Notes under the pieces: generated by a model
What the model saw: only the letters and a program-made list of their open reading frames with translations
Database searches by the model: none
Told to the model about the DNA's origin: nothing
Virus record (IMG/VR): IMGVR_UViG_3300031963_000297
Location: 1 to 43,730 of that record
DNA: 43,730 nucleotides
Direction: 5' to 3' (one strand)
Source: a virus
Shown here: positions 1-43,730 of the stretch, in pieces
Layout of the letters: each line of letters begins with the position of its first letter
Position numbering within the stretch: the first letter of the stretch is position 1
Program-made: the position numbers and the translations under genes

Positions 1-650
1 TTTCTGTGAATCCAGAGACATTCGGCACTAGTGTTGCAGTTCAGATGGAGGCGACCCCTAATGCGAACGACCGATTTCTGGCCGTTGCTGGTGCATTTCC
101 TGCTACCGAAACAATTACTTTTAATATAAGAATTGACCGAACAAACGACTTTGCTTGTGCCGCTGGCGCTACTGGCAGGCCAACGCAAATAGCTAAAGTT
201 GGTACCGGGGTAATTGCAGATAACTGGGTTACTAAAGACTACGCTAGGCGGTTTAAAGATTTCTACGCCACTCCTACCAGTTTCTTCGCCGGCTCAGATG
301 TTAACGAAGAGCTATTTGTAAACAACATTGTTGATTTATTGCAACGAGGTACTATAGCGGATATTGAATATCTATATATGGCTATTAATGGACCTGGTCC
401 TGGTACTCAAAACGCATTAAGTGTTGGCAACAAATGGATTAACAGCCGAGGCATAGCTACCGCTGATATTGGTTTCTTGATGCCTACATTGTTAAACATA
501 GACATTGGGCCTCTTTCTTATCAGGGTTATGTAACCAATCTTCAGGTAAACCACACTTCGTTTACCCAGGAAATGATTCCTATTCGCAGTGATTTAACTA
601 TCTCCCTAAACCTGCTTGCTACAGTCGGTTTGTCTGGGACCACACAGTAA
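1..650 (+). CDS. Tail/baseplate protein, 5'-truncated by window edge
   Basis: The frame is open to the left edge, so the GTG at 6 is probably internal and the true start lies outside the window. The C-terminal part (IGPLSYQGYVTNLQV, then EMIPIRSDLTISLNL) has the pattern 'xxVxVxYtxFdxxxxPiRaxvxlxL' typical of contractile-tail tube or baseplate-initiator proteins encoded just before a LysM protein. It is followed after 8 nt by the LysM gene, the usual order in contractile tails. The tail/baseplate role is well supported by context; the exact subunit is not determined. Confidence 0.6.
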   Translation, partial: SVNPETFGTSVAVQMEATPNANDRFLAVAGAFPATETITFNIRIDRTNDFACAAGATGRPTQIAKVGTGVIADNWVTKDYARRFKDFYATPTSFFAGSDVNEELFVNNIVDLLQRGTIADIEYLYMAINGPGPGTQNALSVGNKWINSRGIATADIGFLMPTLLNIDIGPLSYQGYVTNLQVNHTSFTQEMIPIRSDLTISLNLLATVGLSGTTQ

Positions 651-658
651 GGACTAAT

Positions 659-940
659 ATGGCTATCTATTTAGGCTCTAGGTACGAGAACTCTACTGTA
701 GATTTTCTTGCATACCGTTCCCCTGAAACCGCAGCTCCTGTTGTGTTTTACCAATTTCCTGATATCGGGCGGATTACCTATTCAGAATACTCCTGGCAAG
801 AGGGTGACCGCATGGACCAGGTAGCTGCTAAATTCTATAGGTACCCGGAGCTGTGGTGGCTTGTTGCACAGGCTAATCCTCAAATTGATGACCACAATAA
901 AATACCAGCCGGAACTGTGTTAAGGATTCCAGTTGTTTAA
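659..940 (+). CDS. LysM-domain baseplate protein (gp53-like)
   Basis: 93 aa. The C-terminal half is a LysM-type module: GDRMDQVAAKFYRYPELWWL, then ANPQ and IPAGTVLRIP, as in small LysM baseplate/tail-assembly proteins such as T4 gp53-like and phage gpX-like proteins. These proteins lock the tube initiator to the baseplate and are virion components rather than free cell-wall hydrolases. The ATG at 659 is preceded by AAGGA at 649-653. It overlaps the downstream hub gene by 8 nt, which suggests translational coupling. Confidence 0.85.
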   Translation: MAIYLGSRYENSTVDFLAYRSPETAAPVVFYQFPDIGRITYSEYSWQEGDRMDQVAAKFYRYPELWWLVAQANPQIDDHNKIPAGTVLRIPVV

Positions 941-2246
941 TTATGTTTCTGTAGAGCTTCCTGCTAGCACGCTGCAATTTAAGCGCGTGTTTAAAGTTAC
1001 CTACCGTCAGCATAACTACGAGCACGACTACGCTAGGGTTTATTTTAGGGACTGGAACGCTGCCCTCAACAAGTCTAGGCCAGGCAGCCCAATTATTATT
1101 AAACTAAAAAATAAAGAGTTTTTTGGCTATGTCCATGACGTTAGAGGACACCAGGACTCAAACTCTAACTTTACCGAGGTCGGTATTATTGGGGCATCCT
1201 ACGTTATGCGCCAGGGTAGCCAAGAGGTTTACAAGAACGTTACCGCAGACCAGGTCATCGTAAAAATAGCTAAGAAGTACGGGTTCTCGTACAAGGTGAC
1301 GCCGCACCCACGCGTTTACCCGCAGATTTCTCAGGCCGGTCTTACTGATTGGGAGCTTATGGTTAAGCTAGCCAAGCAGTGCGGGTACTTTTTGCGAGCA
1401 GAAAATACATCTATATATTTTCAGCCACTTACTCAGGACTTTGAAGAGTACATCTATGAAGCGCCAATCTTTGCTAAAAATGACGCGGGCTTTAAATCCT
1501 CTGTTCCGCTGTATTCATTTAAGCCGCTGATTGGCGAGACCCTAGCGCATAACGGGGCGGACAAGTCAGCAATATCTATTGCGGGTGTAGACCCTGAGAC
1601 AGGCAAATATTTTAAATATACAAAACAACGCCGCTCACTACCCACCAGGCGTAACTCACAGCCTGAGCTATTTGATAAGCACAGCACGGCTGTTGTTGCA
1701 AATAACTACAATACAGCCGTTCAAGAAGCCAAAAGTGCTGATGAGAAAAGTCGTTTTCCGTACTCTGCTGAGGCGGAGGTAATTGGCGATACTCGTCTTA
1801 AGCCAGGTCATCCGGTATACATTGCCGGTGTTGGAACTGAGTACTCTGGATACTGGACAGTGCTACGCGTAGAGCATTATGTTATCGAAGAGTCTTTAAA
1901 CGCTCAGAGGTTTACTACAAGGCTTCTACTAGGCACGGACTCTTTAGGAGAAACCGCTGACCCTAAGTATCCAATAACACCGCCATCTAGGGCTACTCGA
2001 CTAATATCTTCTAGGACAAGAAGCACTCGAGTAATACCACAAACTGTGTTGAGGTCTGCGGGTAACCAGTCAAAACCAAAAGGCGCTGTTTCTTTGGTAA
2101 GCAGGACTAACAGAGCAAACGTTGCTAGCAAGCACATACGTCAAAATACCTGGGTATCAGTTCAGGGCAACTTGAATAGCCGTCCACAAAAACCATCTAT
2201 GTCGCCCACAATTAGAGCTAAGGTGGCCCGAAATGTCGCACGATGA
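933..2246 (+). CDS. Baseplate hub protein (late control gene D / gp27-like)
   Basis: 437 aa. The N-terminal region resembles late-control-D hub proteins: an early beta-rich domain with FFGYVHDVRGHQDSNSN, then ADQVIVKIAKKYGFSYKV (a LysM-like segment around residue 110) and LTDWELMVKLAKQCGYFLR (residues ~137-155), the conserved 'sdwdFL.rLAee.Gy' signature. The C-terminus is basic and low complexity. The best start is TTG 933 with AAGGA at 922-926; the ATG at 943 is out of frame. It lies between LysM and spike genes, as expected for the trimeric hub that carries the spike. Confidence 0.8.
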   Translation: MFNYVSVELPASTLQFKRVFKVTYRQHNYEHDYARVYFRDWNAALNKSRPGSPIIIKLKNKEFFGYVHDVRGHQDSNSNFTEVGIIGASYVMRQGSQEVYKNVTADQVIVKIAKKYGFSYKVTPHPRVYPQISQAGLTDWELMVKLAKQCGYFLRAENTSIYFQPLTQDFEEYIYEAPIFAKNDAGFKSSVPLYSFKPLIGETLAHNGADKSAISIAGVDPETGKYFKYTKQRRSLPTRRNSQPELFDKHSTAVVANNYNTAVQEAKSADEKSRFPYSAEAEVIGDTRLKPGHPVYIAGVGTEYSGYWTVLRVEHYVIEESLNAQRFTTRLLLGTDSLGETADPKYPITPPSRATRLISSRTRSTRVIPQTVLRSAGNQSKPKGAVSLVSRTNRANVASKHIRQNTWVSVQGNLNSRPQKPSMSPTIRAKVARNVAR

Positions 2247-2916
2247 AAAGTACTTTGGGTTATATAGAGGAGTCGTTGTAGATAATAATGACCCTAAAAA
2301 TCTGGGCAGAGTAAAGATGATAGTCCCACAAGTTATGGGTGAACAAGTAACGGATTGGGCTTGGCCAGTTGGCGGGGCTATCAGTCAGGTAAGTTACCCT
2401 TACGGAACTTTTTACACAACCGCTGACCAAAGTATCGGAGTTAACACAGCTACGGTAATTAATACTAGCTGGGTTGAAGGCGATACTAATAAGACTTACC
2501 TGGATGGTGCTAAAATATACGTAGAAGAAACTGGAGATTACTTTGTACAGTTTTCTTCCATGCTTATTAAAACTAACTCTAGCTCTGGCACCGCAAACAT
2601 ATGGTTTAGGAAGAACGGCACAGACATACCGGATAGCAACACTAAGATTACTCTGGCAGGCAATGACGCTGAAGTTACAATGACCGTCAGTCTTATTTTG
2701 GACTTAGAAGCTGGAGATTATATACAGTTTGTTTCTTCAGCCAGCAGTACAAACACCTTTATCAGCTCTGATGCCGCAGGAGTTGGCCCCGCTACGCCGG
2801 GTATTATTGCTACCCTTAATTTGGTGGGTAAGTACAAACCCAGACCTTCTCAAGCTGTTTGGGCCTCGTTTGAAGGCGGAGACCCTAACTTCCCACTATG
2901 GATTGGAGCCTCATAA
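2233..2916 (+). CDS. Baseplate spike (gp5/VgrG-type OB fold) with inserted jelly-roll domain
   Basis: 227 aa. Residues 1-49 match the first OB-fold strands of gp5-type spikes (GLYRGVVVDNNDPKNLGRVK, then VTDWAWPVGG). Residues ~202-227 match the last strands (AVWASFEGGDPNFPLWIG). Between them, residues ~50-199 look like a C1q/TNF-type jelly roll, with IYVEETGDYFVQFS, then IWFRKNGTDIPDSN and LDLEAGDYIQF. So the OB domain is split by a domain known from phage receptor or fibre proteins. No lysozyme domain or long beta-helix is present. The start overlaps the hub gene by 14 nt. Confidence 0.8.
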   Translation: MSHDEKYFGLYRGVVVDNNDPKNLGRVKMIVPQVMGEQVTDWAWPVGGAISQVSYPYGTFYTTADQSIGVNTATVINTSWVEGDTNKTYLDGAKIYVEETGDYFVQFSSMLIKTNSSSGTANIWFRKNGTDIPDSNTKITLAGNDAEVTMTVSLILDLEAGDYIQFVSSASSTNTFISSDAAGVGPATPGIIATLNLVGKYKPRPSQAVWASFEGGDPNFPLWIGAS

Positions 2917-3317
2917 TGTCAGTTATCGCTATGCCTTTTAGGTTTAACTCACTAGGCCGTATAGAAGCTACTACAGACGCCAGGATTGTCTGGAAGAACC
3001 GCATAGTTATGCTGCTTGCTACTAAGTTTGGCGAGCGAGTTATGCGCCCTGACTTTGGCAGCGACTTGCACACAACCGTATTTGAGAACGAAGAAACGGC
3101 CATGGAAATAGCCCAGCGCAGCATCACTATCGCCTTTAATCAGTGGCTCGGTGACCTACAATTGTTAGAGATTAACCCTACATACGACGACTATTCGGGC
3201 ATCATGGAGTTTGAAATCAGGTACTCACTTCCGTCTGGAGAGCAGGATAGCGTCTCCCTAAACACGGCCCTGTTCAATAGAACCGGCGACTTACTACAGG
3301 AGATAGCACGTGGATAA
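2916..3317 (+). CDS. Baseplate wedge protein, gp25/GpW-like
   Basis: 133 aa. It shows the gp25-like pattern IVMLLATKFGERVMRPDFGSD, then the helix EIAQRSITIAFNQW. This fold (T4 gp25, P2 gpW) links sheath and baseplate wedge. ATG 2916 is preferred because it overlaps the spike stop codon (TAATG) and has GGAG at 2905-2908; an in-frame ATG at 2898 would lie upstream of that ribosome binding site. Confidence 0.85.
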   Translation: MSVIAMPFRFNSLGRIEATTDARIVWKNRIVMLLATKFGERVMRPDFGSDLHTTVFENEETAMEIAQRSITIAFNQWLGDLQLLEINPTYDDYSGIMEFEIRYSLPSGEQDSVSLNTALFNRTGDLLQEIARG

Positions 3318-5019
3318 TAACATTAATTATATCCCACAGGTAGATTACACCTCTAGGGACTACATAGCAATTAGGGACGACCTAACTAATCTTATTAATC
3401 AGTTTGCCCCTAACTGGACTAGCCGTGACCCGTCTGACCTAGGCATGGTCATGATTGAGTTGTTCTCATACCTTGGCGATTTGATGAACTTCTACACTGA
3501 CCGAGCTGCAAACGAAGGTTTTATTGCAACTGCGAGCCAAAGGGACAGCCTTCTTCAACTTGCTCGTATGCTTGGCTACGTTCCAACAGCAATCTCAGCT
3601 GCATCCGTAACGCTGACCTTTAGCAACTCAACCGCCTCTAGCGTAGTAGTTCCAGCTAAGACTCAGGTAGCAACCACCTCGGTAGTAAACGGCCTTAACA
3701 CGCAAATCATTTTTGAGACAGACTCGGCAGTTACGGTACCCGCTAAAGTGGGCGCTACTAACGGAAGCGCTACGGTTTTGGCTAGCGAAGGCGTGACTAT
3801 CTCCAGTGAAGTGCTTGGCACATCTAATGGTGCTCCTAGCCAGGCCTTCCGACTATCAGAGCCTGACGTAATTAACTCTAGCGTTTCAGTATTAATTAAC
3901 GGAGTTAACTATTCGTACAGCTCGTCTTTGCTGAACAACAACTCTTACGACTCTGTTTTCTCTTTGAATACTGACGCTGAGGGATACACGTATGTTGTAT
4001 TTGGAGACGGAATCGGTGGCCGAGTTCCCCCTACGGCATCCACAATTTACGCAACATACAGGGTTGGAAATGGAACTCTCGGTAATGTTCCAGCGTTTAC
4101 TCTCGACAACATGCTGACCAACATCACCGCAGGAATTACGGTGAGCAATAATGAAGGAGCAATTGGTGGAGCGGATGAGGAGTCCTCTGACTCTATTCGA
4201 CTAAACGCCCCAAGAGCTTTGAAGGCTTTGACTAGGGCTGTGTCTCTAAAAGACTACTCCTACCTCGCGCTTCAAGTACCGGGCGTTGCCAAGGCTAACG
4301 CTAGTTCATCTGTCTACACAAACGTGATTCTATATGTTGCGCCATTTGGAGACCTTGGAGTAGTTCTATCTGGCGGTGTGTACGTACCAACCGCTGCGTT
4401 TAATGCGCTAGCGACTAACGTAGCTGCTTACTTCTTAGATAAAACTCCTCCAAACACTACGCTTACTATTCTTCCGCCTACGTATGTAGAAATTGACATT
4501 GACATGACTGTCCGTGTATTACCGCAATACCAGCAGGCTGCTACCACAACCAGTGCACTGGCATCTATTAGAGAGTTAGTTTCTCAAGATAACTCATTCT
4601 TCTCTGAGATAATTCCGGTGCAGTATATCCTGAACGCGGTAAGCTCTGTTCCTGGTGTGGACTATGCAACCGTAGAGCTATTGAGACGAACAACTGCTGC
4701 TCAAACATTTTCTGTAAACAACTACAGTAGAAGCACAAACGTAGTAACCATTACTACTAGCGCAACCCACAACATTACAGTCGGTCAAACAATTGTTGTT
4801 GCAGAAGTATCGTCCGCCGCTAATGGTACGTGGGTAGTTACAGCTGTTACTGGAACTACTATCGCATACGCAACTTTGACCAGCGGAACAATTACTTCTA
4901 CTGCTGTATCCCCAGTAGGGTCTGTTAAGGCTCAGGTAGTTGAAACAATCACATGTGCCGTAAACGAAATTCCGTCAGAAGGCACGTTTAACCTAACCGC
5001 TATCGGCGGAATTCAGTAA
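3310..5019 (+). CDS. Baseplate J-like wedge protein with C-terminal inserted domain
   Basis: 569 aa. This is a baseplate J / T4 gp6-gp47-like wedge protein. The N-terminus has YIPQVDYTSRDYIAIRDDL, then IELFSYLGDLMNFYTDRAANEGF and the RDSLLQLARMLGY signature. The core has RLNAPRALKALTRAVSLKDY followed by VPGVAKA. An extra beta-rich segment at residues ~463-537 (SVNNYSRSTNVVTITTS to SVKAQV) interrupts the C-terminal part and resembles an Ig-like adhesive module. Start is GTG 3310 with AGGAG just upstream, overlapping the gp25-like gene. Confidence 0.88.
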   Translation: MDNNINYIPQVDYTSRDYIAIRDDLTNLINQFAPNWTSRDPSDLGMVMIELFSYLGDLMNFYTDRAANEGFIATASQRDSLLQLARMLGYVPTAISAASVTLTFSNSTASSVVVPAKTQVATTSVVNGLNTQIIFETDSAVTVPAKVGATNGSATVLASEGVTISSEVLGTSNGAPSQAFRLSEPDVINSSVSVLINGVNYSYSSSLLNNNSYDSVFSLNTDAEGYTYVVFGDGIGGRVPPTASTIYATYRVGNGTLGNVPAFTLDNMLTNITAGITVSNNEGAIGGADEESSDSIRLNAPRALKALTRAVSLKDYSYLALQVPGVAKANASSSVYTNVILYVAPFGDLGVVLSGGVYVPTAAFNALATNVAAYFLDKTPPNTTLTILPPTYVEIDIDMTVRVLPQYQQAATTTSALASIRELVSQDNSFFSEIIPVQYILNAVSSVPGVDYATVELLRRTTAAQTFSVNNYSRSTNVVTITTSATHNITVGQTIVVAEVSSAANGTWVVTAVTGTTIAYATLTSGTITSTAVSPVGSVKAQVVETITCAVNEIPSEGTFNLTAIGGIQ

Positions 5020-5027
5020 GGAGAATC

Positions 5028-5495
5028 ATGGCATCTTATCCAGGAAACCTACACACGTTTACTACTAAGGTAGATAACACGGACCTAGTTCTTGCTGCGC
5101 ACGTGAACGTGTTGCAAGACGAAGTTGTTGCTGTTCAGACTGCTGTAGGCACCAACCCAGCAACTGGAACTAACACCTACACTAGCTCTGGGTTCACTGT
5201 AGGAACTAGCCACCTGACCCTAGCCGCTAGGCTTACAAACCTAGAGGTTGGAATTATCGGCGACTCTCACAACCAGTACGTTAAAGTTGCGGGAGGAAGC
5301 TTGATTACTGCAGCTACCTCTTCGACCAAAGGCGTTATTATCAAAGGCGCGTCTAGCCAGTCTGCAAACCTTCTAGAGGTTCAGAATAGTAGCGGAACTG
5401 TAATCGCATCTATTAGTGCATCTGGAGAGCTAACAGACACCAAGCTAACCCCAGACCTAGACAACCTGTACGTAACTACATACGTATTCGGATAG
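5028..5495 (+). CDS. Small tail-fibre-like protein
   Basis: 155 aa, rich in Thr, Ser, Ala and Gly. The N-terminus (LHTFTTKVDNTDLVLAAHVN, then LQDEVVAVQTAVG) is a short coiled-coil-like segment seen at the start of phage fibre and minor tail proteins. The end (LLEVQNSSGTVIASISASGE) is a short beta repeat like those of trimeric fibre shafts. It sits between baseplate J and the gpI-like protein. A fibre or fibre-attachment role is inferred; no receptor-binding head is visible. Confidence 0.6.
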   Translation: MASYPGNLHTFTTKVDNTDLVLAAHVNVLQDEVVAVQTAVGTNPATGTNTYTSSGFTVGTSHLTLAARLTNLEVGIIGDSHNQYVKVAGGSLITAATSSTKGVIIKGASSQSANLLEVQNSSGTVIASISASGELTDTKLTPDLDNLYVTTYVFG

Positions 5496-5503
5496 GACTT
5501 TAA

Positions 5504-7513
5504 ATGGCTGTATACGGTAGTAATTTTTATGGGCTCTTTACATACGGCGCTGAGCCTCTTGTAGAGTTTGACGCTACCCCGTTCATTGTACGGCCACACT
5601 ACTACAACACCATTTCTATTAGATGGACAAAGCCATCTGGAGACTGGACTAATTTGCTTCTGGTAAGAAACACGTTTGGTTTTCCGGTTACCCCGGATGA
5701 TGGGGACATACTGCTGTCGGTTACAAATGCTGAACACGACTCCCTGGACCTGCCTTATATTGATTCAGGCGCGTCTATTGCAAACGAGAACTTTCTACTA
5801 GGTTCTGACTTTGTATACTACTACTCGCTTTTTGTAAAGAGAACTATCGACGGCAAATGGGTAAAGGCTGGCAATAACCTAACTACCTCTGTGGGTGATG
5901 GCGGTACCGGTGCCTTAATGTACGACTACACCCCACTCCCATACCGCGCGATTAATACTGACGACCTCCTGTCATTAGACGCTAAGAAGAATCTAGACCT
6001 TGCTAACTTTTTAAATGTATTTGGGTTTGAGTATGACTACTTTAAGTCTTTAGCCACTAACGTTAAAGACAGATACAACGTCTCTAAGTTGCACGGCCGC
6101 CTTGTTCCATTAATGATGGACCAGCTTGGGTTTGTCTACGAGCCTGAAATGGGTATCGAACAAGGCCGCAGACTTCTAGAGAACGCTGCTGCTATCTACC
6201 TAACTAAGGGCTCATCTTACGGAATACGAGCATTTGTAAAGTCATTCTCAGGCTACTCAACAACGATAGCTGCAATGAAAAACTTGTTCCTTACAATCGA
6301 GGACTCTTCTTTTGAGAACGCTAAGGGCTCGTGGTCTGTAGTATCTAACGGAACAATAACTAACATAAGCGGAGCTGGAGAGTCTCCTGCGGTTCCTCCG
6401 TACATTGAGTCGACATCTCCAGCCCTGTTCCCGAACTCACAGCTTGGAATACTGAAGGTCGTTGCGGCCTCTACTGCAAACTCAGTGCTAGCGTGTGGAG
6501 CTGCAAATCCAATTAACCAGGGTATCCCAGTAGTAGCCGGACAAGCGTACACATTTAGCATCTACACCAGGACTAGCCTGTCTGGAACAGCCCGCTCTGT
6601 TTCTTTAAAGATTGACTGGTACAAGTCTGACGGAACGTTTATTAGCAGCTCATCTTCTAGCTCTGCTACAAACAACGAAAGCAGTTGGACTCGTGTATCA
6701 ACTGCTAACAGGACCGCTCCCTCCGGTGCGGCTTTTGCTGTACCAGTAGTTACTATTGCCGCTACTGCAGCAGATATTCACTACCTAGATGCGGGTCAGT
6801 TTGAGCAAGCTTCCTCAGCGTCAGACTACGTAGACGCTAGAAGAATTGACCTATACCTAGCCGCTATGCGTGTCAACTTGGCTAAGAACCCGACATTTGC
6901 GTCGGCTACAACTAACTGGTCTGTAGTGTCTTCATCAGCAAACTCTGTAAGTACCGCGGCAGCTTACTCTGGAACGGGGTCACTACTGCTAACCTCCAAC
7001 GGAGGGGCAAAGTTTGGTTGTAATCAATCTTCAGTTCCTGTTACAGCTGGCTCAGCATACACGTGGTCAATGTATGTAAAAGACGTAAACAGCGCCGTTA
7101 GTTACAAGGCAGGGATAAGTTGGTATGACGGCTCTTCTACGCTTATCAGCACATCAAGCGGAACTACAACTGCAGTTAGTTCGTCAGGGTGGACTAGGGT
7201 TTATGTGACTGGAGTAGCGCCTGCTAACGCAGCCACTGCAACTATCTCAATTGAATCTTATTCTGCTGCTGCGTCTGGTACTCAAGCCTACTTTGATGGG
7301 GCTTTGTTTGAGCAAACAGACTCACTAAACCAGTACTTCGATGGTGACGCTGGATACTACGAAACTACCGACCTTTTGTGGGAAGACAACGACGACACAA
7401 ACGGCAAAAGCTACTACTACAAAAACAGGCTTTACGTTACCAAACGATTGATTACCGCCCTGCCAGAGTACATGCAACTCGGGTCTACTTGGGCACTTTT
7501 CATTGGAAGTTGA
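5504..7513 (+). CDS. P2 gpI-like baseplate/tail protein with two CBM-like jelly rolls
   Basis: 669 aa. Residues ~20-130 look like an Fn3-type beta domain. Residues ~145-255 (YRAINTDDLLSLDAKKNLDL, FLNVFGFEYDYFKSLA, then AAAIYLTKGSSYGIRAFVK) match the tail protein I / T4 gp7-like region that joins fibres to the wedge. Two repeats follow at residues ~260-440 and ~457-620. Each starts with an 'N/D-x-x-F-E/A-...W' strand and ends 'AYFDGALFEQ'-like, as in CBM4/9-type carbohydrate-binding jelly rolls. The pair probably binds surface glycans and is the likely host-recognition part of this locus. Confidence 0.75.
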   Translation: MAVYGSNFYGLFTYGAEPLVEFDATPFIVRPHYYNTISIRWTKPSGDWTNLLLVRNTFGFPVTPDDGDILLSVTNAEHDSLDLPYIDSGASIANENFLLGSDFVYYYSLFVKRTIDGKWVKAGNNLTTSVGDGGTGALMYDYTPLPYRAINTDDLLSLDAKKNLDLANFLNVFGFEYDYFKSLATNVKDRYNVSKLHGRLVPLMMDQLGFVYEPEMGIEQGRRLLENAAAIYLTKGSSYGIRAFVKSFSGYSTTIAAMKNLFLTIEDSSFENAKGSWSVVSNGTITNISGAGESPAVPPYIESTSPALFPNSQLGILKVVAASTANSVLACGAANPINQGIPVVAGQAYTFSIYTRTSLSGTARSVSLKIDWYKSDGTFISSSSSSSATNNESSWTRVSTANRTAPSGAAFAVPVVTIAATAADIHYLDAGQFEQASSASDYVDARRIDLYLAAMRVNLAKNPTFASATTNWSVVSSSANSVSTAAAYSGTGSLLLTSNGGAKFGCNQSSVPVTAGSAYTWSMYVKDVNSAVSYKAGISWYDGSSTLISTSSGTTTAVSSSGWTRVYVTGVAPANAATATISIESYSAAASGTQAYFDGALFEQTDSLNQYFDGDAGYYETTDLLWEDNDDTNGKSYYYKNRLYVTKRLITALPEYMQLGSTWALFIGS

Positions 7514-7563
7514 CAAGCCCATAACTTCGTCATAACATGATATCTCCGTCAAAGGAGGAAACC

Positions 7564-8250
7564 ATGAGACGAGTAACCATCGCGGTTATTGGAAACGCAA
7601 AATCAACCAGGGCTAACGTAGAGGCCCTAATTACAGACATGGCTGATGCCATGGATTCGGTAGCACTGGCTACTGTTTACAAAGACAAGCAGTCAGACGG
7701 CCAAATATGGGCAGAACAACTTGCTCAAGACAAAAGTATCCCGTGGGTAGCGTACGACAAGAATGACTACAAAACCCTACTTAAAGAGCACAAGGATAAT
7801 GAGATTAAGTTCTTTATCCTGTGGGATGACGAGGACCCGGAGTGCCAACTGGCAGCGTCCGTGGCGCAGGAAAACTCAATTATTGCATACGACCTGACTA
7901 ACGGTCTGATGCAAATTCCGTTCTCTTCTAGCACGATACAGAAGCCGGCTGTAACAGAAATTCCGGAGATAGAAACTCAGGTTAGTTCTGAGCCTGTTGA
8001 GCCGCAGTTATCTCAAGGGTCTGGCAGTCGAAGAGTCGTACTAGACGTAGGAGAGGCTGTGGCCACTCTGATAGAGGGCGCTCTAGCAAGCGATGACGCG
8101 GAAGAAGAGCCAGAAGAAGAAGACCTTGATGAGTCTGAGGAAGACGAAACTTGGGACTTAGGTGAGCTTTTAGAAAATGCTATAGAAGAAGCAGCTCGGC
8201 ATTTTGCTCGCTCATTTGCTGATGAATTCAAAAAAATAATCGGCAAATAA
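7564..8250 (+). CDS. Unknown protein, Rossmann-like N-terminus and acidic tail
   Basis: 228 aa, first gene of the replication operon. The N-terminal ~110 residues alternate hydrophobic strands and helices (RRVTIAVIGNAKSTRANVEA, KFFILWDD), suggesting a Rossmann-type or SLOG-like nucleotide-binding fold. A linker follows, then a strongly acidic run (~residues 175-205) and a C-terminal amphipathic helix. ATG 7564 is chosen over 7537 because AAAGGAGG lies right before it. No confident family; the acidic tail may bind a basic partner or mimic DNA. Confidence 0.5.
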   Translation: MRRVTIAVIGNAKSTRANVEALITDMADAMDSVALATVYKDKQSDGQIWAEQLAQDKSIPWVAYDKNDYKTLLKEHKDNEIKFFILWDDEDPECQLAASVAQENSIIAYDLTNGLMQIPFSSSTIQKPAVTEIPEIETQVSSEPVEPQLSQGSGSRRVVLDVGEAVATLIEGALASDDAEEEPEEEDLDESEEDETWDLGELLENAIEEAARHFARSFADEFKKIIGK

Positions 8251-9104
8251 TGAGCCCTAACATAAGTGACCAGGCTAAGGCTTGGTTGGATTTCTTCTAC
8301 CTGCACCCAGAGGTGCGGATTAATTACCATGCTCTGATGAAGTACGGCCCAGTTAGCCGTAGAAAAAGCATGGACATCATCCGTGAACTTAAGGCCGCAA
8401 AACTAATTCATGCTAAGCGCTCACGCCACATCGGAACTAATTTAGAACTTACCGTAGCGGTAAGCTCCGTTACATCCGTTACAGCAGTACAGCCAATAAG
8501 CAGTATTTCCAATAGCAGTATTGCTAGTACTAGCAGTTATGCTACAAATAAATTCTTCGACGAGGTCGAAGAGGAAGGCGACAAAGTGGGTTACGACTTT
8601 TTTGAAAGCACATCTACTGGCGATGATGAGATTATCCGCGAGCGCGAAAAGCACATGGCGGTTAAGAAGGCCGAGTATGCTGAGGCTCAAGAAAAGAAGG
8701 CTCAGCAGCGTAAAGACATACACCGGTCAAAGCTGGACCCAATTAGTTGGACTTGCAAGGACGTGGCCTACGAGTTTGCAGACCGCATGGCAAACATTTG
8801 GAGCATCAAGCCATTTAGCGTAACTCAGTCCAGGTTTGTGCAGGCGTTGGCCGGATTCCGCAAGCAGCACGACACAAACGGGGCGCTGGAGCTAGAAATC
8901 ATTAACATGTTTTTCTCTGGTCTTCAGGCTGAAAAGTACACTGATGGCAACCACTTGTGGCGGGCATTTATGTACAAGGCCCCGCTGCTTTTGCAATCTG
9001 CGAAAGAACGTGTAGTATCTGCAGAAGATGTGCAGACCGCTATTGTCGATGACCAGCAGGTTAGCAAGAAGAAACTAGCCCTTTTGGAGGACGAAGATGT
9101 ATAA
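8250..9104 (+). CDS. Winged-helix replication initiator-like protein
   Basis: 284 aa. Residues ~1-60 look like a winged helix: WLDFFYLHPEVRINYHALMK, then SRRKSMDIIRELKAAKLIHA with a KRSRH wing. A Ser/Thr-rich linker (~75-105) and a charged coiled-coil stretch (~115-155) follow. The C-terminal helical domain (CKDVAYEFADRMANIWSIKP) resembles phage replisome-organiser C-termini that contact the loader. It directly precedes a DnaC-like loader, the lambda O/P-like order. The start overlaps the previous stop (TAATG). The initiator role is inferred. Confidence 0.55.
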   Translation: MSPNISDQAKAWLDFFYLHPEVRINYHALMKYGPVSRRKSMDIIRELKAAKLIHAKRSRHIGTNLELTVAVSSVTSVTAVQPISSISNSSIASTSSYATNKFFDEVEEEGDKVGYDFFESTSTGDDEIIREREKHMAVKKAEYAEAQEKKAQQRKDIHRSKLDPISWTCKDVAYEFADRMANIWSIKPFSVTQSRFVQALAGFRKQHDTNGALELEIINMFFSGLQAEKYTDGNHLWRAFMYKAPLLLQSAKERVVSAEDVQTAIVDDQQVSKKKLALLEDEDV

Positions 9105-9783
9105 GCCTGACGAACTGCCTGCTCGCAGGAGAACCTGGGTTAAGACCGCAAACGTGCCTCCAGCCAAGATTGGCTGGGAACTAACTGACTGTAAGGACAT
9201 CCCAGGGGAATCCACAGAAGCCATCCAAAAGTGGCTTAAAAGCCTCTACAACGGCCGTATACTGCGTGCTGAGGGTAAGGAGACCTGCGGCCTTGGAATG
9301 CTGTTCTACGGCCTCCCAGGGCGCGGTAAGACCACAGTAGCCAATGCTGTGATACAGGACATCATCCGCAACGTAGACCCTTCTGTGGTCGGTATGGAGC
9401 CGGGGAGAGCCGTTCCACGACCTTGCTACTTCATCACCTATAACGGCCTCCTAGACCTAAAGGGAGCCATTATGGAGGACCACGACCCTAACGACGAGCT
9501 GCTCTACAATGGCCTGCTAGGCGAGGCTACGGATGACTCATACAACGTCCGAATCCTGGTTCTAGACGACGTAGGCAAGGAGCACTCAAGCGCTTCGGGC
9601 TGGCAGAAGAACATGCTCCACCACGTCTTGCGCACCCGATTCAACAACGGATTGCCCACAATAGTTACAACAAATGTAGCCCTAAACGATTGGGATGCCC
9701 ACTACGGAGCAGCGACTCAATCCTTTATTCACGAGGCATTCATTTGGCTAAACATGAACACAGCAGAAGATTTGAGGAAGTAA
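9097..9783 (+). CDS. DnaC-like AAA+ helicase loader
   Basis: 228 aa AAA+ ATPase. Walker A is GLPGRGKTT (residues 72-80) and Walker B is ILVLDDVGKEH; TNVALNDW corresponds to sensor I. Length and motifs fit DnaC/IstB-type loaders that place the replicative helicase on DNA. It overlaps the initiator-like gene by 8 nt and lies two genes before the DnaB-like helicase. Confidence 0.8.
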   Translation: MYKPDELPARRRTWVKTANVPPAKIGWELTDCKDIPGESTEAIQKWLKSLYNGRILRAEGKETCGLGMLFYGLPGRGKTTVANAVIQDIIRNVDPSVVGMEPGRAVPRPCYFITYNGLLDLKGAIMEDHDPNDELLYNGLLGEATDDSYNVRILVLDDVGKEHSSASGWQKNMLHHVLRTRFNNGLPTIVTTNVALNDWDAHYGAATQSFIHEAFIWLNMNTAEDLRK

Positions 9784-14236: not shown

Positions 14237-14244
14237 GAGATAAA

Positions 14245-14478: not shown

Positions 14479-14486
14479 GAGAAAAG

Positions 14487-14621: not shown

Positions 14622-14625
14622 AATA

Positions 14626-14666: not shown

Positions 14667-14672
14667 ATTTAA

Positions 14673-15550: not shown

Positions 15551-15585
15551 GTTGTTCCTTTCGGGTATCTATCTATTGTCGGTTA

Positions 15586-35330: not shown

Positions 35331-36221
35331 TTGCTACAAGAAACAGAGACCTCCTATTTTAGTGAGCCGTCATCCACGCTAGACCCGCGGCTGTTCCGCA
35401 ACGGAAAACTAGATAGTTCAATTCGTTCTGCTATTTTGCAGTTGCTATTAAACCATTTAAACGCTAACTACACTGGCGCTGATGGTTGGATGACTGCCTG
35501 GCTAACCGGCTCCGGAGTCTCGTATCAGTGGGCCGCTAACAGAGAGCCGGGAGACTTGGACTGCCAAGTCGCTATTGATTTCACCCGCTTTCGCGCCTCA
35601 AATAATAAGTTCCGAGGCTTTAGTGACAAAGAGATTGCCGATGAGATTAACGAGGGTTTTAGACAAGACCTGCACCCTATTAGCGAGTTGTTCCTAGACA
35701 CCTTTGAACTAACCTTCTTTGCCATACTTAACGCAAATATTATCGAGAGCAAGCCATACGCTGCCTACGCACTGTTAGATGACGAGTGGGTAGTAGCCCC
35801 ATCACTACAGGGGCAACAGGCAATCCCAGAGTTTGACGCTTTTTCTAATAAAGACAGAGAAGCGGCAATTAATATTATGACTAAGTTCATAGCCGCTAGA
35901 AATAAATATGACCAAGCAACCAACGATGCTGTAAAGGCTAATGCTCGCTCAGAAATGCGTATTGCTTCGTCGCAGGCCATCACGCTGTATGAAGACATAC
36001 ACGGCAACAGGGCTAATGCTTTCGGCCCAAATGGCAAGGGATATTCAGACTTTGCCAATTACCGCTGGCAATCAGGTAAAAAACTAGGCGTAGTCAATGC
36101 GCTTCGGGCTATAAAAAAAGAGATGGAAGCCCGTGACGCAGAAGCACAGCGCTCCACATACGGAGTGGACTTACCAGATGCCGCTACGCTGATTAGGCGA
36201 GCAGCAACCTACAACCAGTAG
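35331..36221 (+). CDS. Nucleotidyltransferase-like protein
   Basis: 296 aa. TGSGVSYQW (G60-S61) followed by GDLDCQVAIDF (D75, D77) is the GS...DxD core of Pol-beta-type nucleotidyltransferases. Downstream helices form the rest of the domain. TTG 35331 has GAGG upstream. Such proteins are often found before the packaging genes of actinophages. Substrate unknown. Confidence 0.7.
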   Translation: MLQETETSYFSEPSSTLDPRLFRNGKLDSSIRSAILQLLLNHLNANYTGADGWMTAWLTGSGVSYQWAANREPGDLDCQVAIDFTRFRASNNKFRGFSDKEIADEINEGFRQDLHPISELFLDTFELTFFAILNANIIESKPYAAYALLDDEWVVAPSLQGQQAIPEFDAFSNKDREAAINIMTKFIAARNKYDQATNDAVKANARSEMRIASSQAITLYEDIHGNRANAFGPNGKGYSDFANYRWQSGKKLGVVNALRAIKKEMEARDAEAQRSTYGVDLPDAATLIRRAATYNQ

Positions 36222-36237
36222 AAAGAAATAAATAGTC

Positions 36238-36693
36238 GTGGCAATAGTTGTATTTTTAGACGGGGTAATGCGTTCAGAGACCAAAGTCCCAATCTTTGAG
36301 GGCATCTCGCTTTACAAATCCCTTGATGTAAACGGTATCGTATCTATAGCGTGCGATGACGCAGAAGAAGCCGCTCGCTGGTGTAAAGAACACAAATTAG
36401 TATCGGTAGACAACTTTATATCTAACGCTACTGTAGGTGAGTATGAGGACAAGGATATCCTCAAGGTGCAGCACCAGCAGGCCCAGGGGCCAGTGCATCT
36501 GGTTATCACAGCCGACGTGGACTTGGCTAAACAATTATTAGAAAAGGGCGTTAAAACCCTATTATTCCTACACCCAATATACCTAAGTGCTAAGTTCCGC
36601 CCAGATGGTCGGGATGGCAAGAAGAAGTGGGATGAGCTCGTAGGTGAGTTAGACCGACAGGTAGACCTACTAATGGGAGATAAAAGGGTTTGA
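36238..36693 (+). CDS. HAD-like protein
   Basis: 151 aa. VVFLDGVMRSE at the N-terminus resembles a reduced HAD motif I (only one Asp), then VHLVITADVDLAKQLLEKGV and LLFLHPIYLSAKFRPDG. The second catalytic Asp is missing, so activity is uncertain. It lies between the nucleotidyltransferase and the terminase-associated protein. GTG 36238 start. Confidence 0.55.
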   Translation: MAIVVFLDGVMRSETKVPIFEGISLYKSLDVNGIVSIACDDAEEAARWCKEHKLVSVDNFISNATVGEYEDKDILKVQHQQAQGPVHLVITADVDLAKQLLEKGVKTLLFLHPIYLSAKFRPDGRDGKKKWDELVGELDRQVDLLMGDKRV

Positions 36694-38141
36694 AAATAAT
36701 ATATTTAGGTGCTGAGATACCTAGCAACCGACAGATACTCGAGAAGGCGGCCGCATCCGCGGTGGGCGTAAGCGTCTGGGGATTAATTAAACGCGGCTTG
36801 CCAAAGACAAAACAGTATTTATTAAGCAACTATTTTGCTGAAAACACCGATATTTATGTCTATCCTGGAATCCCTGCCACCGCTACGCTGACCGAATCAG
36901 AGCTGGTTGAGTTCAGCGCTGACTATGAAACTTTTATTGCGGAGAACCTAGATAGGATTACCCTATTTACAGAGGTGTCGCACCCACTTTTGCCCGAGGG
37001 CTTCAAAGAAGAGCAGCGGCAGTCGTGCTGGGCAGAAGTCCAGGAGGAGAAGCTGGCGGTTGTATATGACGGCGGAGACCTAGAAAGCCTAGCAACTAGG
37101 TATTTAAATGTCCTAATTCCTGCCTCAGAATACGAAACAGACCCTAGTATGGCAGCAAAGATGAGACTGTATTCTGAGCGCCACGGGACACAGTTTCACA
37201 CAGTAGGTATGGCAAAGCCCGATTTAATGCGTAATTCGCCATTTAAAACCGCTGGCACGCTGGCTTGGCTGTCGCCTATGATGAGGGGCGAGACTATTGT
37301 GTGGCACGCCAACACCTTGACTCGCTACCCGAAGCGTATGAAAGAACAAGCCCGCAGTAGATACAAGGCTGTATACGAACAGGCTGGCTTAGACTTTGAT
37401 AAAATATTAGCCGATGACGCTGTAGAGGTATCTAGGTTAGCAATTTGGTCGTATCAACAGTTAGAGGCTTGGAATAATAAAATGGAGTTAGTTACTAATA
37501 GTGATGATTCACTACCCCCACAAAAAGCGGAAACACCTACTAATGATGTTACTAAGAGGGGGTCTGGTATGCGGAAACTTAATCCACGAAACCCAGACGA
37601 AATTACCACTTTGCCCGTCTTAAATATAGATTTTAATAGGGTAATAGAGACCGATGACAAGGGCGTTGATGTCCTTAAAGAAGTGCCGGTCACGCGTTCT
37701 AATGGCACGAGCCTGCGTCAATGTAACACCTGTTTTGTCAAGGACACTTGCCCTGCTGCCAAGCCTGATAGCGTGTGCGCTTTTAACCTACCTGTGGAGT
37801 TAAAGACTAAGGAACAACTTAAGGCTCTAATCAACGCTTTCCTTGAAATACAAGGGCAGCGAGTGGCATTCGCCAAGTTTACAGAGGACTTAAATGGTGG
37901 TTATCCTGACCCGAATGTGGGTCAAGAAATCGACAGGTTCTTTAAAATGCTGGAACAAATTAACAAGTTAGACCAGTCAAAAGAGACCATTAGAATCACC
38001 GCTGAACGCTCTGGGAGTTCAGGAGTTCTCTCTGCTCTCTTTGGAGATAGGGCGCAAGTTCTTAACGAATTGCCCAATGGTGGGCTAAACGAACAGCAGA
38101 CAAATAGCATTATTGAGCAGATTAATCCAGAGCAGAGTTAG
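36690..38141 (+). CDS. Probable terminase-associated / small terminase-like protein
   Basis: 483 aa. The C-terminal third has a Cys cluster (CNTCFVKDTCPAAKPDSVC) followed by LIEIQ-type helices (KALINAFLEIQGQRVAF) and GGYPDPNVGQEIDRFFKML. This arrangement is seen in proteins just before or acting as small terminase subunits in several phages. The N-terminal ~270 aa carry a WLSPMMRGETIVWHANTLT region of unknown role. TTG 36690 overlaps the previous stop. The large terminase is not in the window, so the assignment stays moderate. Confidence 0.5.
   Translation: MKIIYLGAEIPSNRQILEKAAASAVGVSVWGLIKRGLPKTKQYLLSNYFAENTDIYVYPGIPATATLTESELVEFSADYETFIAENLDRITLFTEVSHPLLPEGFKEEQRQSCWAEVQEEKLAVVYDGGDLESLATRYLNVLIPASEYETDPSMAAKMRLYSERHGTQFHTVGMAKPDLMRNSPFKTAGTLAWLSPMMRGETIVWHANTLTRYPKRMKEQARSRYKAVYEQAGLDFDKILADDAVEVSRLAIWSYQQLEAWNNKMELVTNSDDSLPPQKAETPTNDVTKRGSGMRKLNPRNPDEITTLPVLNIDFNRVIETDDKGVDVLKEVPVTRSNGTSLRQCNTCFVKDTCPAAKPDSVCAFNLPVELKTKEQLKALINAFLEIQGQRVAFAKFTEDLNGGYPDPNVGQEIDRFFKMLEQINKLDQSKETIRITAERSGSSGVLSALFGDRAQVLNELPNGGLNEQQTNSIIEQINPEQS
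37485..37501. repeat. 17-bp exact direct repeat, copy 1
   Basis: GAGTTAGTTACTAATAG. A second exact copy is at 38135-38151, across the stop codon of the same gene. It contains the odd palindrome TTAGT-T-ACTAA. Confidence 0.7.
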
Positions 38142-39815: not shown

Positions 39816-41864
39816 TTACCTCGTTCCTTTGATGTTGTGGCGCACTACACCCTTAGCAACTTTAACAAGGTCGTTAGGGTTGCCGATAAATTGTAGGTCG
39901 TTAGCGCCGTGTTGTAGTTGTGCGATTTGAGCAGGGTCGTCTTTGATTTTGTCTATCCAATCGCCGTTCGCTAAAAATACGATAGAGGTAAATACTCCAT
40001 TGTCACGAAGGGCTTTAATAGATTTATCTGCGTTGCTATTAAATGCGCCGTCAGTCAGGACAAAGACCAACTTTGTCTTGGCAGTTGATAAGCCCATTAT
40101 GCGCTCGGTTTCTTTAAGGGCGTAGGTCGGGTCAGTTCCACCACTACTTTCGACCATTAGCACCTCGGTTGCTTTTGCTTTGGTATCGCCGTCTATGAGG
40201 GTGCGTGATGTATCGCTGAATGTCATAACCGACACTCTGCCGTTGATTTTCTCAACAGCCCTCTTGATTGCCCAAGCGCTACGGCAGACTGCGCCCATTT
40301 CAGACCACATAGAGCCTGACCTGTCCATAAGGATACAAGCCTCTATGTTGTAGTCGTCATTACCCAATTCCCAACGATTAAATAATTTGTTGATGTCGTT
40401 GATGTCGGCGTTCATAGCCTTAGCAACATTGAGTTTGCCTGTCGGCTTGTCCTGTATCCATAGAGGGTCGCAGTCAATTCGTAGGCGTTCCAACTCTTGT
40501 GCGAATAGGCGACTTGCTGTGACCTCACGCTGTTCAGGCGTAGCCCTCGTAAATCGAGATTGTCCTAAAATAGACTTGGTTGAGTTATCCCTAGCGATTG
40601 CGCCAACTGTGTCACGGACTTTCTGTTGGAGTTGCTTATCAGCCTTAGCCCTCTCGGCGACCTCTTGGGCTTTCTTGATAAGCGCCTCGCTGTGTTCGTT
40701 AAAGTGAGCGTGGTCTTTGTCAATCTCGCCTGTGTTCGTGCCGACCTGTGTGCCAGCCTCGGGGAATAGACCCTTTTCATTTTCCTCGGGGTCTTGTGAG
40801 TTGATTTCGTCTTGGGCTTTCTCGCTCTGGGGCTTGCCGTTCCTCATCATTGGGCGTTCGTGACAGCCGTGAGGGTCAGGCTTTCCTGCGCCCTCTGGTA
40901 ATAGGGCTACTAAGAGTGTGATTAGTTGCTCTGCCCGAGTGTAATCCCGAGGGAAAACAAGTTTGCGATACTCTGCGGTCAGTTCGTAGATTGCCCTCGC
41001 CCTGTCCTCGCCGTGTTTCTGTGCGTATAGCAGGGCTGATAAGGCTCGTAGTTCTCGGTCAAGATACATACGACCAGCAAGCAAAACAAAACTATCAGCG
41101 AGGGTGTCGGCGTGGTCGGCTATGTAATCGCTGACTGTGGCGATTAGAAACGGCTTGACACTTGGATACTTGATTGTCAGCAGTCGCTCGGCTCGGCTGT
41201 CCTCTAAGATGTTAAAGGCAAGCAGTCGGCGTTCCTCAACTAGCGCCTCAACCTTAAACTCGTAGTCGTAGTCCTCTACCTGCTGTGTATCGTGATTAAA
41301 CCTGCGACCTGTGTGCTTTTCAGTCTTGGTAGCCTTTTCCATTACCCACTTGCCAAGCGCTGTGCCGATACGAGGGGTGTAGAGCAGGTGCGCTAGTTCG
41401 TGATAGTTAAGTCCGTGTAGCGACCTGACTGTATCATCATCAAGCGCCTTAATCTGCGTGGCGTTAAAGGTGACATTCTTGCCGTCATTGTGAGCAGGTG
41501 CGCTTGCCACATCATCATTTAAAAATACCTGAATAGGCAAGTTAGTTAAAATGCGGTCTGCTTTCTGGTAAATAGAGCAAGCGCTATCAAGGCTGTTATT
41601 CCTGATGATTAGGTGCTGTCCGTCTTGCGACTGCCGAGCGTATTCCTCTCGGTTAAACTGCTCTTTGAGTTCGTAGTAGCGCATTGAGCGCTCTTGGTAA
41701 ATCTCGGCGACCTCTCGCCCTGTTTCCTTTGCGACTTTCTGAATGGTTTCGGTGTCGAACCCTATGTCTGCCATTAGGTCAGCGTTCTCGTTCTGCCACT
41801 CATACCACCTGTGCCACGCTAGGTTGTGGTTATACTCACCTGTATTGCGAATGTGTTTAGCCAT
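39816..41864 (-). CDS. Metallopeptidase-like HExxH protein with vWA domain (CobT/ViaA-like)
   Basis: 682 aa from ATG 41864 (MAKHIRNTGEY), preferred over the longer frame because it follows the MoxR stop closely with AGGTTT upstream. A zinc-type HELAH motif (155-159) sits in the N-terminal helical domain, as in DUF2201-like proteins. The C-terminal vWA domain has a complete MIDAS site: D514-x-S516-x-S518 (DRSGS), T577 (SGGTDP) and D605 (LTDG). A long charged linker lies between. It is the expected partner of the MoxR ATPase encoded just upstream. Confidence 0.8.
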   Translation of the reverse strand: MAKHIRNTGEYNHNLAWHRWYEWQNENADLMADIGFDTETIQKVAKETGREVAEIYQERSMRYYELKEQFNREEYARQSQDGQHLIIRNNSLDSACSIYQKADRILTNLPIQVFLNDDVASAPAHNDGKNVTFNATQIKALDDDTVRSLHGLNYHELAHLLYTPRIGTALGKWVMEKATKTEKHTGRRFNHDTQQVEDYDYEFKVEALVEERRLLAFNILEDSRAERLLTIKYPSVKPFLIATVSDYIADHADTLADSFVLLAGRMYLDRELRALSALLYAQKHGEDRARAIYELTAEYRKLVFPRDYTRAEQLITLLVALLPEGAGKPDPHGCHERPMMRNGKPQSEKAQDEINSQDPEENEKGLFPEAGTQVGTNTGEIDKDHAHFNEHSEALIKKAQEVAERAKADKQLQQKVRDTVGAIARDNSTKSILGQSRFTRATPEQREVTASRLFAQELERLRIDCDPLWIQDKPTGKLNVAKAMNADINDINKLFNRWELGNDDYNIEACILMDRSGSMWSEMGAVCRSAWAIKRAVEKINGRVSVMTFSDTSRTLIDGDTKAKATEVLMVESSGGTDPTYALKETERIMGLSTAKTKLVFVLTDGAFNSNADKSIKALRDNGVFTSIVFLANGDWIDKIKDDPAQIAQLQHGANDLQFIGNPNDLVKVAKGVVRHNIKGTR

Positions 41865-41868
41865 TTTA

Positions 41869-43260
41869 TTAAACCTCGTCACTCTGAATAGGTGCGGTTG
41901 CGATTTCGATACCAAAGTCGGTAGCGATACCAGACTTGGCGGTGTCAAAGACCAACTTGACTGCCTCTCGTTCATCATCAGCAAAGCCGTTGATGTAAGA
42001 GTTAATAGCGTAGTTAAGCCCGACATTCTCAACATTCTTGGTAAATGCCATTAGACCTCGGGTAGAGATAGGGGTGTCAATCTCGCCCTTGTGCGCTTGG
42101 TCACGGAGTTTCTGCGCTACATCAAGCAGAGAGGCGTTCTTAATAAGTTTCTTTTCGATTGACTTGTCGTAGTCAAACTCCAACTTGTGAGCAAAGCGGT
42201 CTTTCCACGCTTGGTTCATTGGGCGACTGCCTCGGTAGTTCGGGTTGTGGTCGCCGATTACAACTAGGTCAGGGTGCGCCTTGATTACCTCGCCACCATT
42301 TTCGAGCAGTTGGATTTCTCGCCTGTCGTCAAGCAAGCCAAATAGGACTGTGGTAATTCGCTCTGGCATAAAGTCAATTTCGTTGAGCAACAGCACTCCG
42401 CCGTGTCTTACCAAGTCAGTCACAGCGCCGTCTTGCCACTTAAAGACACCTGCGGTTTCGGTAGGTGTCCAAGCGCCGAATAGGTGACTTGGTTCTAAGC
42501 CGACATTGGCGCTGATGTTGTAGTAGCGGTATCCCCGAGCGCTTGCCCAAGCAAGCACACACATTGTCTTACCCGAGCCAGCGTGACCTCGGATTAGGAC
42601 ATTCTGCTTATTAGTCTTGGCAACATCAAGCAAGTCAAAGTCAGTAATCTTGCCGTCAATCTTGCGGTTGATGTAATCGTCAGCCCACTTTCGGTCTGGG
42701 ATACGAGCAAGTTCGACCTGTGCGCTCTGTGCGGTTGGGGCAGGAATTGGCGCTTTGGCAGTTGGGGCAGGTGCTACCTCAACAGGCTTGCTAACCTCTG
42801 GGGCTAGGACAGGGTAAAAAGCGGTTTCCAATTCAGGACTGCCGATAGGGGCAAAGGTAATAGGATTGCGTAGTCTGCCGTCACTAATGTAGGCGTTCAG
42901 TTCAGGGTCGCCAGCCATTAGTTGCTCAACGACCTCGCCGACCATTTCAGCGTGAGCGATAGGAAACTGCTCATTGACAGGCTTGCTAACTACGGCAAGC
43001 AACTTGACGGCTAGGGCTGTGACATTCCCAATCTCTGCGCTTGCTACATCTCGGGCGCTGATTAGGACTGCCTTTGGTTCGTGAGTGATAAAGGTCATAG
43101 GTAGTTCATCAGTCGTCTTGACTGACTGCCAGCGCTGACCACGACCTCGCTGACCATTCGATAGGCGGTGAAACATAAGGACTTCGGTGTTTGTTGGAAC
43201 GACCAGAGTTTGCTCTTTGCCATTCTCAACCTCGCTCTCAATCATTAGTGCTATGGACAT
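41869..43260 (-). CDS. MoxR-family AAA+ ATPase (CobS/NorQ-like)
   Basis: 463 aa. The C-terminal AAA+ domain has Walker A GHAGSGKT (225-232), Walker B VLLLNEID (289-296), sensor-1 N339 and an Arg finger near R355 in AWKDRFAHKL. It carries the MoxR-type FGAWTPTETAGVF insert. The N-terminal ~210 residues are a separate domain with a Pro/Ala-rich linker (APAPTAKAPIPAPTA). MoxR ATPases work with vWA proteins to remodel or activate substrates. First gene of the leftward operon. Confidence 0.85.
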   Translation of the reverse strand: MSIALMIESEVENGKEQTLVVPTNTEVLMFHRLSNGQRGRGQRWQSVKTTDELPMTFITHEPKAVLISARDVASAEIGNVTALAVKLLAVVSKPVNEQFPIAHAEMVGEVVEQLMAGDPELNAYISDGRLRNPITFAPIGSPELETAFYPVLAPEVSKPVEVAPAPTAKAPIPAPTAQSAQVELARIPDRKWADDYINRKIDGKITDFDLLDVAKTNKQNVLIRGHAGSGKTMCVLAWASARGYRYYNISANVGLEPSHLFGAWTPTETAGVFKWQDGAVTDLVRHGGVLLLNEIDFMPERITTVLFGLLDDRREIQLLENGGEVIKAHPDLVVIGDHNPNYRGSRPMNQAWKDRFAHKLEFDYDKSIEKKLIKNASLLDVAQKLRDQAHKGEIDTPISTRGLMAFTKNVENVGLNYAINSYINGFADDEREAVKLVFDTAKSGIATDFGIEIATAPIQSDEV

Positions 43261-43395: not shown

Positions 43396-43570
43396 GCTTG
43401 CGGAAAGAGTAAAAATGGGGCGCTTGGTCAATTCGACCACTAGCAACTAATAGAGATAGATAAACATAGAGAGTTCGTATTGGTTGTAGCAGAACAGGCT
43501 TGCCAATCTCTTAGTTGCTAATAAGCCTGCGAACCTAGCCCACATCTGGGCTTATCCCTGCGTGCTTGTC

Positions 43571-43621
43571 AGGCTTATTAGGCAGTAGCCTAAGTGGCTC
43601 TGGCTAATAGGCTTATTAGGC
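43571..43621. repeat. AGGCTTATTAGGC direct repeats
   Basis: The 13-mer occurs at 43571-43583 and 43609-43621 (offset 38). A one-base-shorter inverted form, GCTAATAAGCCT, is at 43517-43528. Confidence 0.65.
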
Positions 43622-43622
43622 T

Positions 43623-43669
43623 CTTTCCGCGCTCGCGGTGGAGTAGTCTACTCTCTCTATGGCGGAAAG
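43623..43669. other. Large hairpin/cruciform
   Basis: CTTTCCGC (43623-43630) pairs with GCGGAAAG (43662-43669). Inside lies the palindrome GAGTAGTCTACTC (43641-43653). Confidence 0.55.
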
Positions 43670-43730
43670 GGCAATAGCCGTTACCAAATCGTTACAATGG
43701 CCGACTGGCCGGCGCGTAGCCTACCCTCTC

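Follow-up and report, generated by a model that had tools for sequence, protein, structure and literature searches.

Complete absence of GATC from an uncultured phage and from many of its relatives: a probable case of restriction-site avoidance

Can more than 40 kb of phage DNA lack the tetranucleotide GATC altogether and, if so, what has removed it? The question is raised by IMG/VR virus record IMGVR_UViG_3300031963_000297, which comes from an uncultured phage and is possibly a fragment. The window analysed here is that entire record, 43,730 b in length. GATC is the recognition sequence of the type II enzymes DpnII and Sau3A (accessible portions of PMC4190342 and PMC6346686). A sequence-only reading of the window had claimed that GATC is completely absent, and an exact count bore this out, with 0 copies in a GATC-free stretch that covers the whole of positions 1–43730 (a feature not assigned to a strand).

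The number of copies expected is 102.8 under a maximal-order Markov model based on trinucleotides (z −12.9), and 169.5 if the bases are treated as independent. When all 256 tetramers were compared with the Markov expectation, a check proposed together with the claim, the z value for GATC was the lowest of all, followed by that for AGCT (134 versus 231.6 expected); there were neither dozens of GATC sites nor an expectation near zero. The other 4 bp palindromes, which had been described as plentiful, are all present, though several are mildly low (observed/expected 0.58 for AGCT, 0.61 for TATA and 0.67 for CGCG). Avoidance was also correctly said to extend over coding and non-coding DNA. In 300 synonymous-codon shuffles of the coding part, which keep the proteins and the codon usage fixed, the mean number of GATC was 115.1 and the minimum 88, compared with 0 observed, and the 5,694 b of non-coding DNA contain 0 versus 9.0 expected. 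Protein content, codon usage and base composition therefore do not explain the absence, and strong, lasting selection against GATC in the window is clear.

The count was extended to relatives, as the sequence-only reading had proposed, using polA, the gene for DNA polymerase I (21679–23676, + strand; phrog_17, E 2e-125), as the anchor both for finding relatives and for trees. The first scan with polA found 46 viral relatives, making 47 records with the window. Two further scans gave 127 loci, of which 47 were discarded as near-copies and 80 added, bringing the total to 127 records and 2.39 Mb. GATC is missing from 63 of the 127 (1,033,212 b, about 2441 copies expected), including both records with a polA 100 % identical to that of the window (22,332 and 35,589 b). 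One record with a GATC expectation below 10 was dropped. Among the 126 testable records, the observed/expected ratio is zero in 62, below 0.1 in 3 more, 0.1–0.2 in 11, 0.2–0.5 in 7 and at least 0.5 in 43. In the first set, counted over whole records, 18 are GATC-null (535,712 b, 1259 expected), 15 are GATC-poor (0.05–0.24), 3 are intermediate (0.34–0.51) and 11 are near-normal (0.59–1.06). A single metagenome, 3300028392, contributed six records that span the null, poor and near-normal classes (one of its two null records is only 4.8 kb), which argues against a library or assembly effect, as this should affect all of them.

All 256 tetramers were then tested in each of the 127 records wherever at least 10 copies were expected. 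Just eight are missing from one or more records, each of them a palindrome: GATC (62 of 126 records), CCGG (27 of 100), CGCG (3 of 111), AGCT (3 of 127), and ATAT, AATT, TCGA and GGCC, each absent in one record. The avoided sets vary between relatives, which is the pattern that different restriction enzymes, and not a mutational or codon effect, would be expected to leave. Loss of CCGG, a second avoided site, often accompanies loss of GATC (G035, G037, G042, G043 and others), presumably as for an HpaII-type enzyme. In G035, GATC and CCGG are both missing and GGCC occurs once versus 87, and G042 (23,566 b; loci L122 and L123) lacks GATC, CCGG, CGCG and ATAT (0 versus 37 expected for ATAT, for which we know of no restriction enzyme). 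Longer words are also missing. G036 (L103, L104) lacks CCAGG and CCTGG (0 versus 18.7 and 19.0 expected), and G009 (L052–L056) has neither GCAGGC, a non-palindromic word, nor the complementary GCCTGC (0 versus 26.2 and 13.6 expected). A longer true target containing GATC (GGATCC, TGATCA or RGATCY) was considered and rejected, as the flanks of the GATC sites left in poor relatives appear unrestricted by eye.

The fate of individual sites was followed in alignments. Where the near-normal G009 is aligned to the window, none of its 69 GATC sites is kept, versus 376 of 1415 other palindromes (27 %). The same holds for null G012 relative to G028 (0 of 28 GATC kept versus 30 % of other palindromes) and to G011 (0 of 11 versus 44 %), and for null G044 relative to G032 (0 of 8 versus 32 %). 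Between pairs of records that carry a Dam-family methylase gene (see below), 7 of 24 and 4 of 12 GATC sites are kept, a retention close to that of other palindromes (39 % and 40 %, respectively). In these carriers GATC looks tolerated though scarce, as if regained after a purge or partly protected.

The null state has changed repeatedly. A carefully built polA tree with 47 rows needs 8 changes of the null label, of which starred branches force 7, and a larger tree with 116 rows, built quickly, needs 21, of which 15 are forced (11 of the 127 records were omitted from the latter because they had no usable polA or a GATC expectation below 10). These numbers should be read with the caveat that some null labels come from short records (G013, G024) and that a number of terminal branches are long. 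Of the null records, G044 falls inside a Dam-bearing clade, at a fork that is not resolved, and G012 pairs as sister with the Dam-bearing G011.

The Dam-family gene was singled out by protein clustering of the 47 records, as a small protein with an NPPY motif. A match to PF05869 (Dam) above the curated score was found in 13 of the 47, namely 11 GATC-poor records, the intermediate G011 and G039 (ratio 0.59), and in 0 of the 18 null records. Three proteins matched NCBIfam TIGR01712, at no more than 94.4 bits (best E 5e-27), and so stayed under the cut-off of 97.05. In all carriers except G039 the gene occupies one variable slot upstream of polA. The corresponding slot in the window (19555–20497, + strand), recognized from its synteny, holds four small open reading frames (ORFs; 19555–19758, 19755–19937, 20126–20341 and 20325–20504) and no methylase. 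The claim that the window has no Dam-like methylase also stood: profile searches of the window, a possible fragment, with PF05869, PF02086 and PF01555 were all negative.

The four GATC-poor records of the first set without the gene extend no more than 1.1 kb upstream of polA, so that the slot is out of view. Of the records that reach at least 2.5 kb upstream, all 11 poor ones carry the gene and none of the 12 null ones does (Fisher p 7e-7, a value that ignores relatedness). In the larger set, the corresponding figures for records with the slot in view are 11 of 14 poor, 1 of 3 intermediate, 1 of 29 near-normal and 0 of 52 null. Total absence of GATC, recurrent in these relatives, is thus associated with lack of the methylase, and all 13 carriers retain GATC. 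The Dam-family protein is 55.1 % identical over 97 % of its length to the Dam of Lactococcus phage phi93. That enzyme, in which NPPY is the sole recognized motif, is described as methylating GATC and as blocking DpnII and not DpnI (accessible portions of PMC4190342). From this similarity, the protein of the relatives would be expected to methylate GATC as well.

Two side observations come from the relatives. In the Dam-bearing G016 (87 kb), 15 of the 31 GATC lie within bases 39361–47012, less than 8 kb, as if this segment had recently been acquired from a source without GATC avoidance. Other methylases are encoded by G031 (36098–36652), G028 (23677–24234), G034 (50004–51368) and G016/G017 (PF01555), and their types are DPPW (MT-A70-like by eye), cytosine (by eye) and N6/N4 (by Pfam).

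The explanation we consider highly probable is restriction-site avoidance, in which a host enzyme would cleave unmodified GATC and the phage evades it by retaining no such site. Each new GATC would expose the incoming genome to cleavage, and the mutant, genic or intergenic, would be eliminated. Lineages that carry Dam would methylate GATC instead and could keep some sites, and lineages that meet no GATC enzyme would show near-normal counts. Restriction is favoured because only palindromic tetramers vanish, because the avoided sets differ and the null state toggles, and because GATC survives with Dam and is absent from many records whose corresponding slot holds no methylase. Hence the proposal in the sequence-only reading of strong selection through restriction is supported. 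If Dam methylation relieves the pressure, the agent would be a nuclease that acts on GATC without a methyl group and that N6-methyladenine blocks, which fits DpnII or MboI and not DpnI. We infer a DpnII/MboI-like host nuclease, acting in an actinobacterial host.

Several results weigh against this explanation. The poor-class Dam carriers are still at 0.05–0.19 of the GATC expectation, and the methylase must therefore have arrived late or give partial protection only. Three poor records (L267, GATC 1/27; L268, 5/23; L279, 9/38) have the slot in view but lack Dam, and their available stretches contain no further adenine-methylase motif. Two of the three intermediates, G014 and G028, also lack Dam, though G028 has a DPPW-type protein. 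Near-normal GATC is found in 40 of the 113 testable records with no Dam match, which would require that their hosts have no GATC-cutting enzyme. When relatedness is taken into account, the Dam contrast is reduced to four independent pairs on starred branches, of which about three (2–4) are in the expected direction and none is opposite, and a sign test gives p 0.125–0.5. Finally, neither a cognate GATC enzyme nor a host was pinned down in the genomes sampled from the phylum Actinomycetota, as set out below.

The host is likely to be an actinobacterium, judging from gene content. The window encodes a WhiB-type regulator (26071–26454, + strand; Pfam Whib, E 1.6e-10) at the same place as the WhiB of Streptomyces phage LuckySocke, and the WhiB protein cluster is found in 29 of the 47 records. 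LuckySocke and BRock, also a Streptomyces phage, are the closest isolates by polA (about 40 % identity), and LuckySocke has a comparable gene order, namely SSB (single-stranded DNA-binding protein), polA, RecA, resolvase, WhiB and Cas4, with other genes interspersed. A DNA search limited to bases 1–20000 of the window found no relative in the phage collection. Actinomycetota was sampled as the phylum of the Acidimicrobiia metagenome-assembled genome G047 (locus L204). The DpnII family is present in only 6 of 396 genomes of this sample and the MutH/Sau3AI family in 13 of 336, and in one order the DpnII family was found in 0 of 327 genomes. This order, chosen on weak grounds, is that of G360 (G+C 0.49 at the locus), as guessed from rhodopsin genes. 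By eye, the nuclease at all six DpnII loci is adjoined by an ORF whose adenine-methylase motif is DPPY or DPPF; the loci have a G+C of 0.28–0.43 and show no tie to these phages. The eight strongest MutH-family matches lie inside open frames of 325–922 residues and, by length alone, are more like Sau3AI-type enzymes than MutH.

Two other routes to the host were tried and abandoned. Bacterial polA relatives were sought, and the 80 loci among the matches listed were only 29–37 % identical (best segment) and were read as generic polymerases. G009 (L054, 10806–15674) carries a phage transfer-messenger RNA (tmRNA; tag AESRSAFALAA) beside genes for tRNA-Met, Asn, Val and Thr (the tRNA search of the relatives covered 60 of 76 pieces). 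This tmRNA matched 27 of 396 genomes, nearly all at the conserved 3′ end, with one match at the 5′ end and one at both.

The scarcity of known GATC-cutter families in the sampled phylum favours the first alternative, a GATC defence other than DpnII/MboI, such as phosphorothioate modification (Dnd), a Sau3AI-type nuclease insensitive to N6-methyladenine or an undescribed nuclease. In a lake metaepigenome, seven actinobacterial draft genomes had no methylated motif, though read coverage, where given, was low at about 5–12 and motifs were possibly missed (accessible portions of PMC6329791); this would be odd if those organisms were the hosts and the system used N6-methyladenine, and it fits a common system of that kind badly. 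On the other side, the Dam-family methylase of the relatives would need to protect against such a defence too, and Sau3AI is not known to be blocked by N6-methyladenine. We regard this alternative as unlikely. A related reading is doubtful but a little easier to entertain, namely that an undescribed or non-methylation GATC defence, unrelated to DpnII, MboI or Sau3AI, is common in the presumed actinobacterial hosts. The phage group would then toggle between purging GATC and filling the Dam slot, and its GATC count and slot would report on this hidden defence.

An improbable alternative is methyl-directed mismatch repair, in which the MutH of a Dam/MutHLS host nicks phage DNA at GATC sites that lack methylation on one or both strands. 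The precedent is phiX174, which has no GATC and for which the same Poisson argument was used; it differs in being 5.4 kb, in its enterobacterial host and in having been discussed via mismatch repair, with MutH cutting of unmethylated GATC proposed as the counter-selection (accessible portions of PMC5014478). A phage Dam might be expected to give relief here too. However, the host is probably actinobacterial, and the strongest of the few MutH-family matches in the phylum (13 of 336) resemble Sau3AI-type enzymes by length. To our knowledge, actinobacterial hosts have no MutSL/MutH repair. Mismatch repair also leaves the loss of CCGG (27 of 100) and the rare losses of CGCG, AGCT and ATAT unexplained.

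Cleavage of methylated GATC by an enzyme of the DpnI type, in a host that methylates with Dam, would likewise favour total loss of GATC. It predicts that Dam carriers should be the most GATC-free and the opposite was found, as 13 of 13 retain GATC, making this reading very improbable.

Equally hard to sustain is a phage-encoded GATC nuclease directed at host DNA, which would leave the phage without its own target. Nucleases do appear to be present, as a small protein (25704–26048, + strand) is encoded at the position of the LuckySocke Holliday junction resolvase, though it had no match of its own in Pfam or NCBIfam. However, this ORF is found in 19 of 19 records longer than 30 kb, including GATC-normal ones. 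As it occurs in every GATC class, it is not the cause of avoidance. Clusters of ORFs (at least 50 aa, in the 47 records) confined to null records reach no more than 5 of the 18. A DNA-modification gene was considered as well. The window encodes a queuine tRNA-ribosyltransferase-like protein (36690–38141, + strand; phrog_887, E 3e-39), which had no Pfam or NCBIfam match, which we take to be DpdA-like and which is present in 18 of 19 records longer than 30 kb. It too occurs in every GATC class and leaves the avoidance unexplained, so that both candidates were rejected as the cause. If DpdA is a guide, these phages may carry 7-deazaguanine in their DNA, evidently not sparing GATC.

Artefacts of library preparation or assembly, a bias in mutation and the usage of codons have a negligible chance of being the cause: the contigs are metagenomic and some library methods employ GATC-cutting enzymes, but metagenome 3300028392 yields null, poor and near-normal records, the shuffles retain 115.1 GATC, and GAT and ATC are frequent enough for 102.8.

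Returning to restriction-site avoidance, complete loss of GATC, widespread avoidance of restriction sites and protection by a phage Dam are already known. GATC, the Sau3AI site, is absent from the genome of Staphylococcus Kayvirus phages such as vB_SauM-515A1 (accessible portions of PMC7596081), and we counted 0 versus 74.7 expected in the first 40,000 b. These are also large phages with complete absence, but the host and the GATC cutter are known there, the phage is unrelated, and it was compared here without methylase-bearing relatives. Rusinov et al. 2018 found GATC under-represented in 46 of 46 phages whose hosts encode corresponding enzymes (accessible portions of PMC6286503). The phages in that survey have known hosts, whereas the group described here is uncultured and switches repeatedly. 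The small, NPPY-only M.Phi93DAM of the lactococcal 936-type phage resembles the Dam of GATC-poor relatives, but the host belongs to another phylum, its gene is in the packaging module and not near polA, and the window has no Dam. BRock and LuckySocke have near-expected GATC (120 versus 124.2 and 102 versus 110.7, in 22 kb each). What is new is a phage group with at least 15 changes of the null state, the extent of the loss, and a slot that marks the alternative strategy. In full-text literature searches, mostly of papers outside subscription, none of the titles listed dealt with GATC avoidance in this group.

The group amounts to a natural experiment, in which one genome plan occurs in three forms: GATC and methylase both absent, some GATC together with Dam, or near-normal GATC. 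Phage sequence alone could reveal the restriction repertoire of uncultured hosts, and the prediction here is that a GATC cutter is widespread in the hosts, together with a CCGG cutter.

The remaining genes of the window are as follows. Beside polA, at the SSB position of LuckySocke, is a conserved protein (20971–21630, + strand) found in 19 of 19 records longer than 30 kb. A baseplate gene, a DnaB-like helicase, a DNA helicase and RecA are also encoded. On the minus strand, an overlapping pair (39816–43260) encodes an AAA ATPase (phrog_249, phrog_16448) and a 739 aa protein that is presumably CobS/CobT-like.

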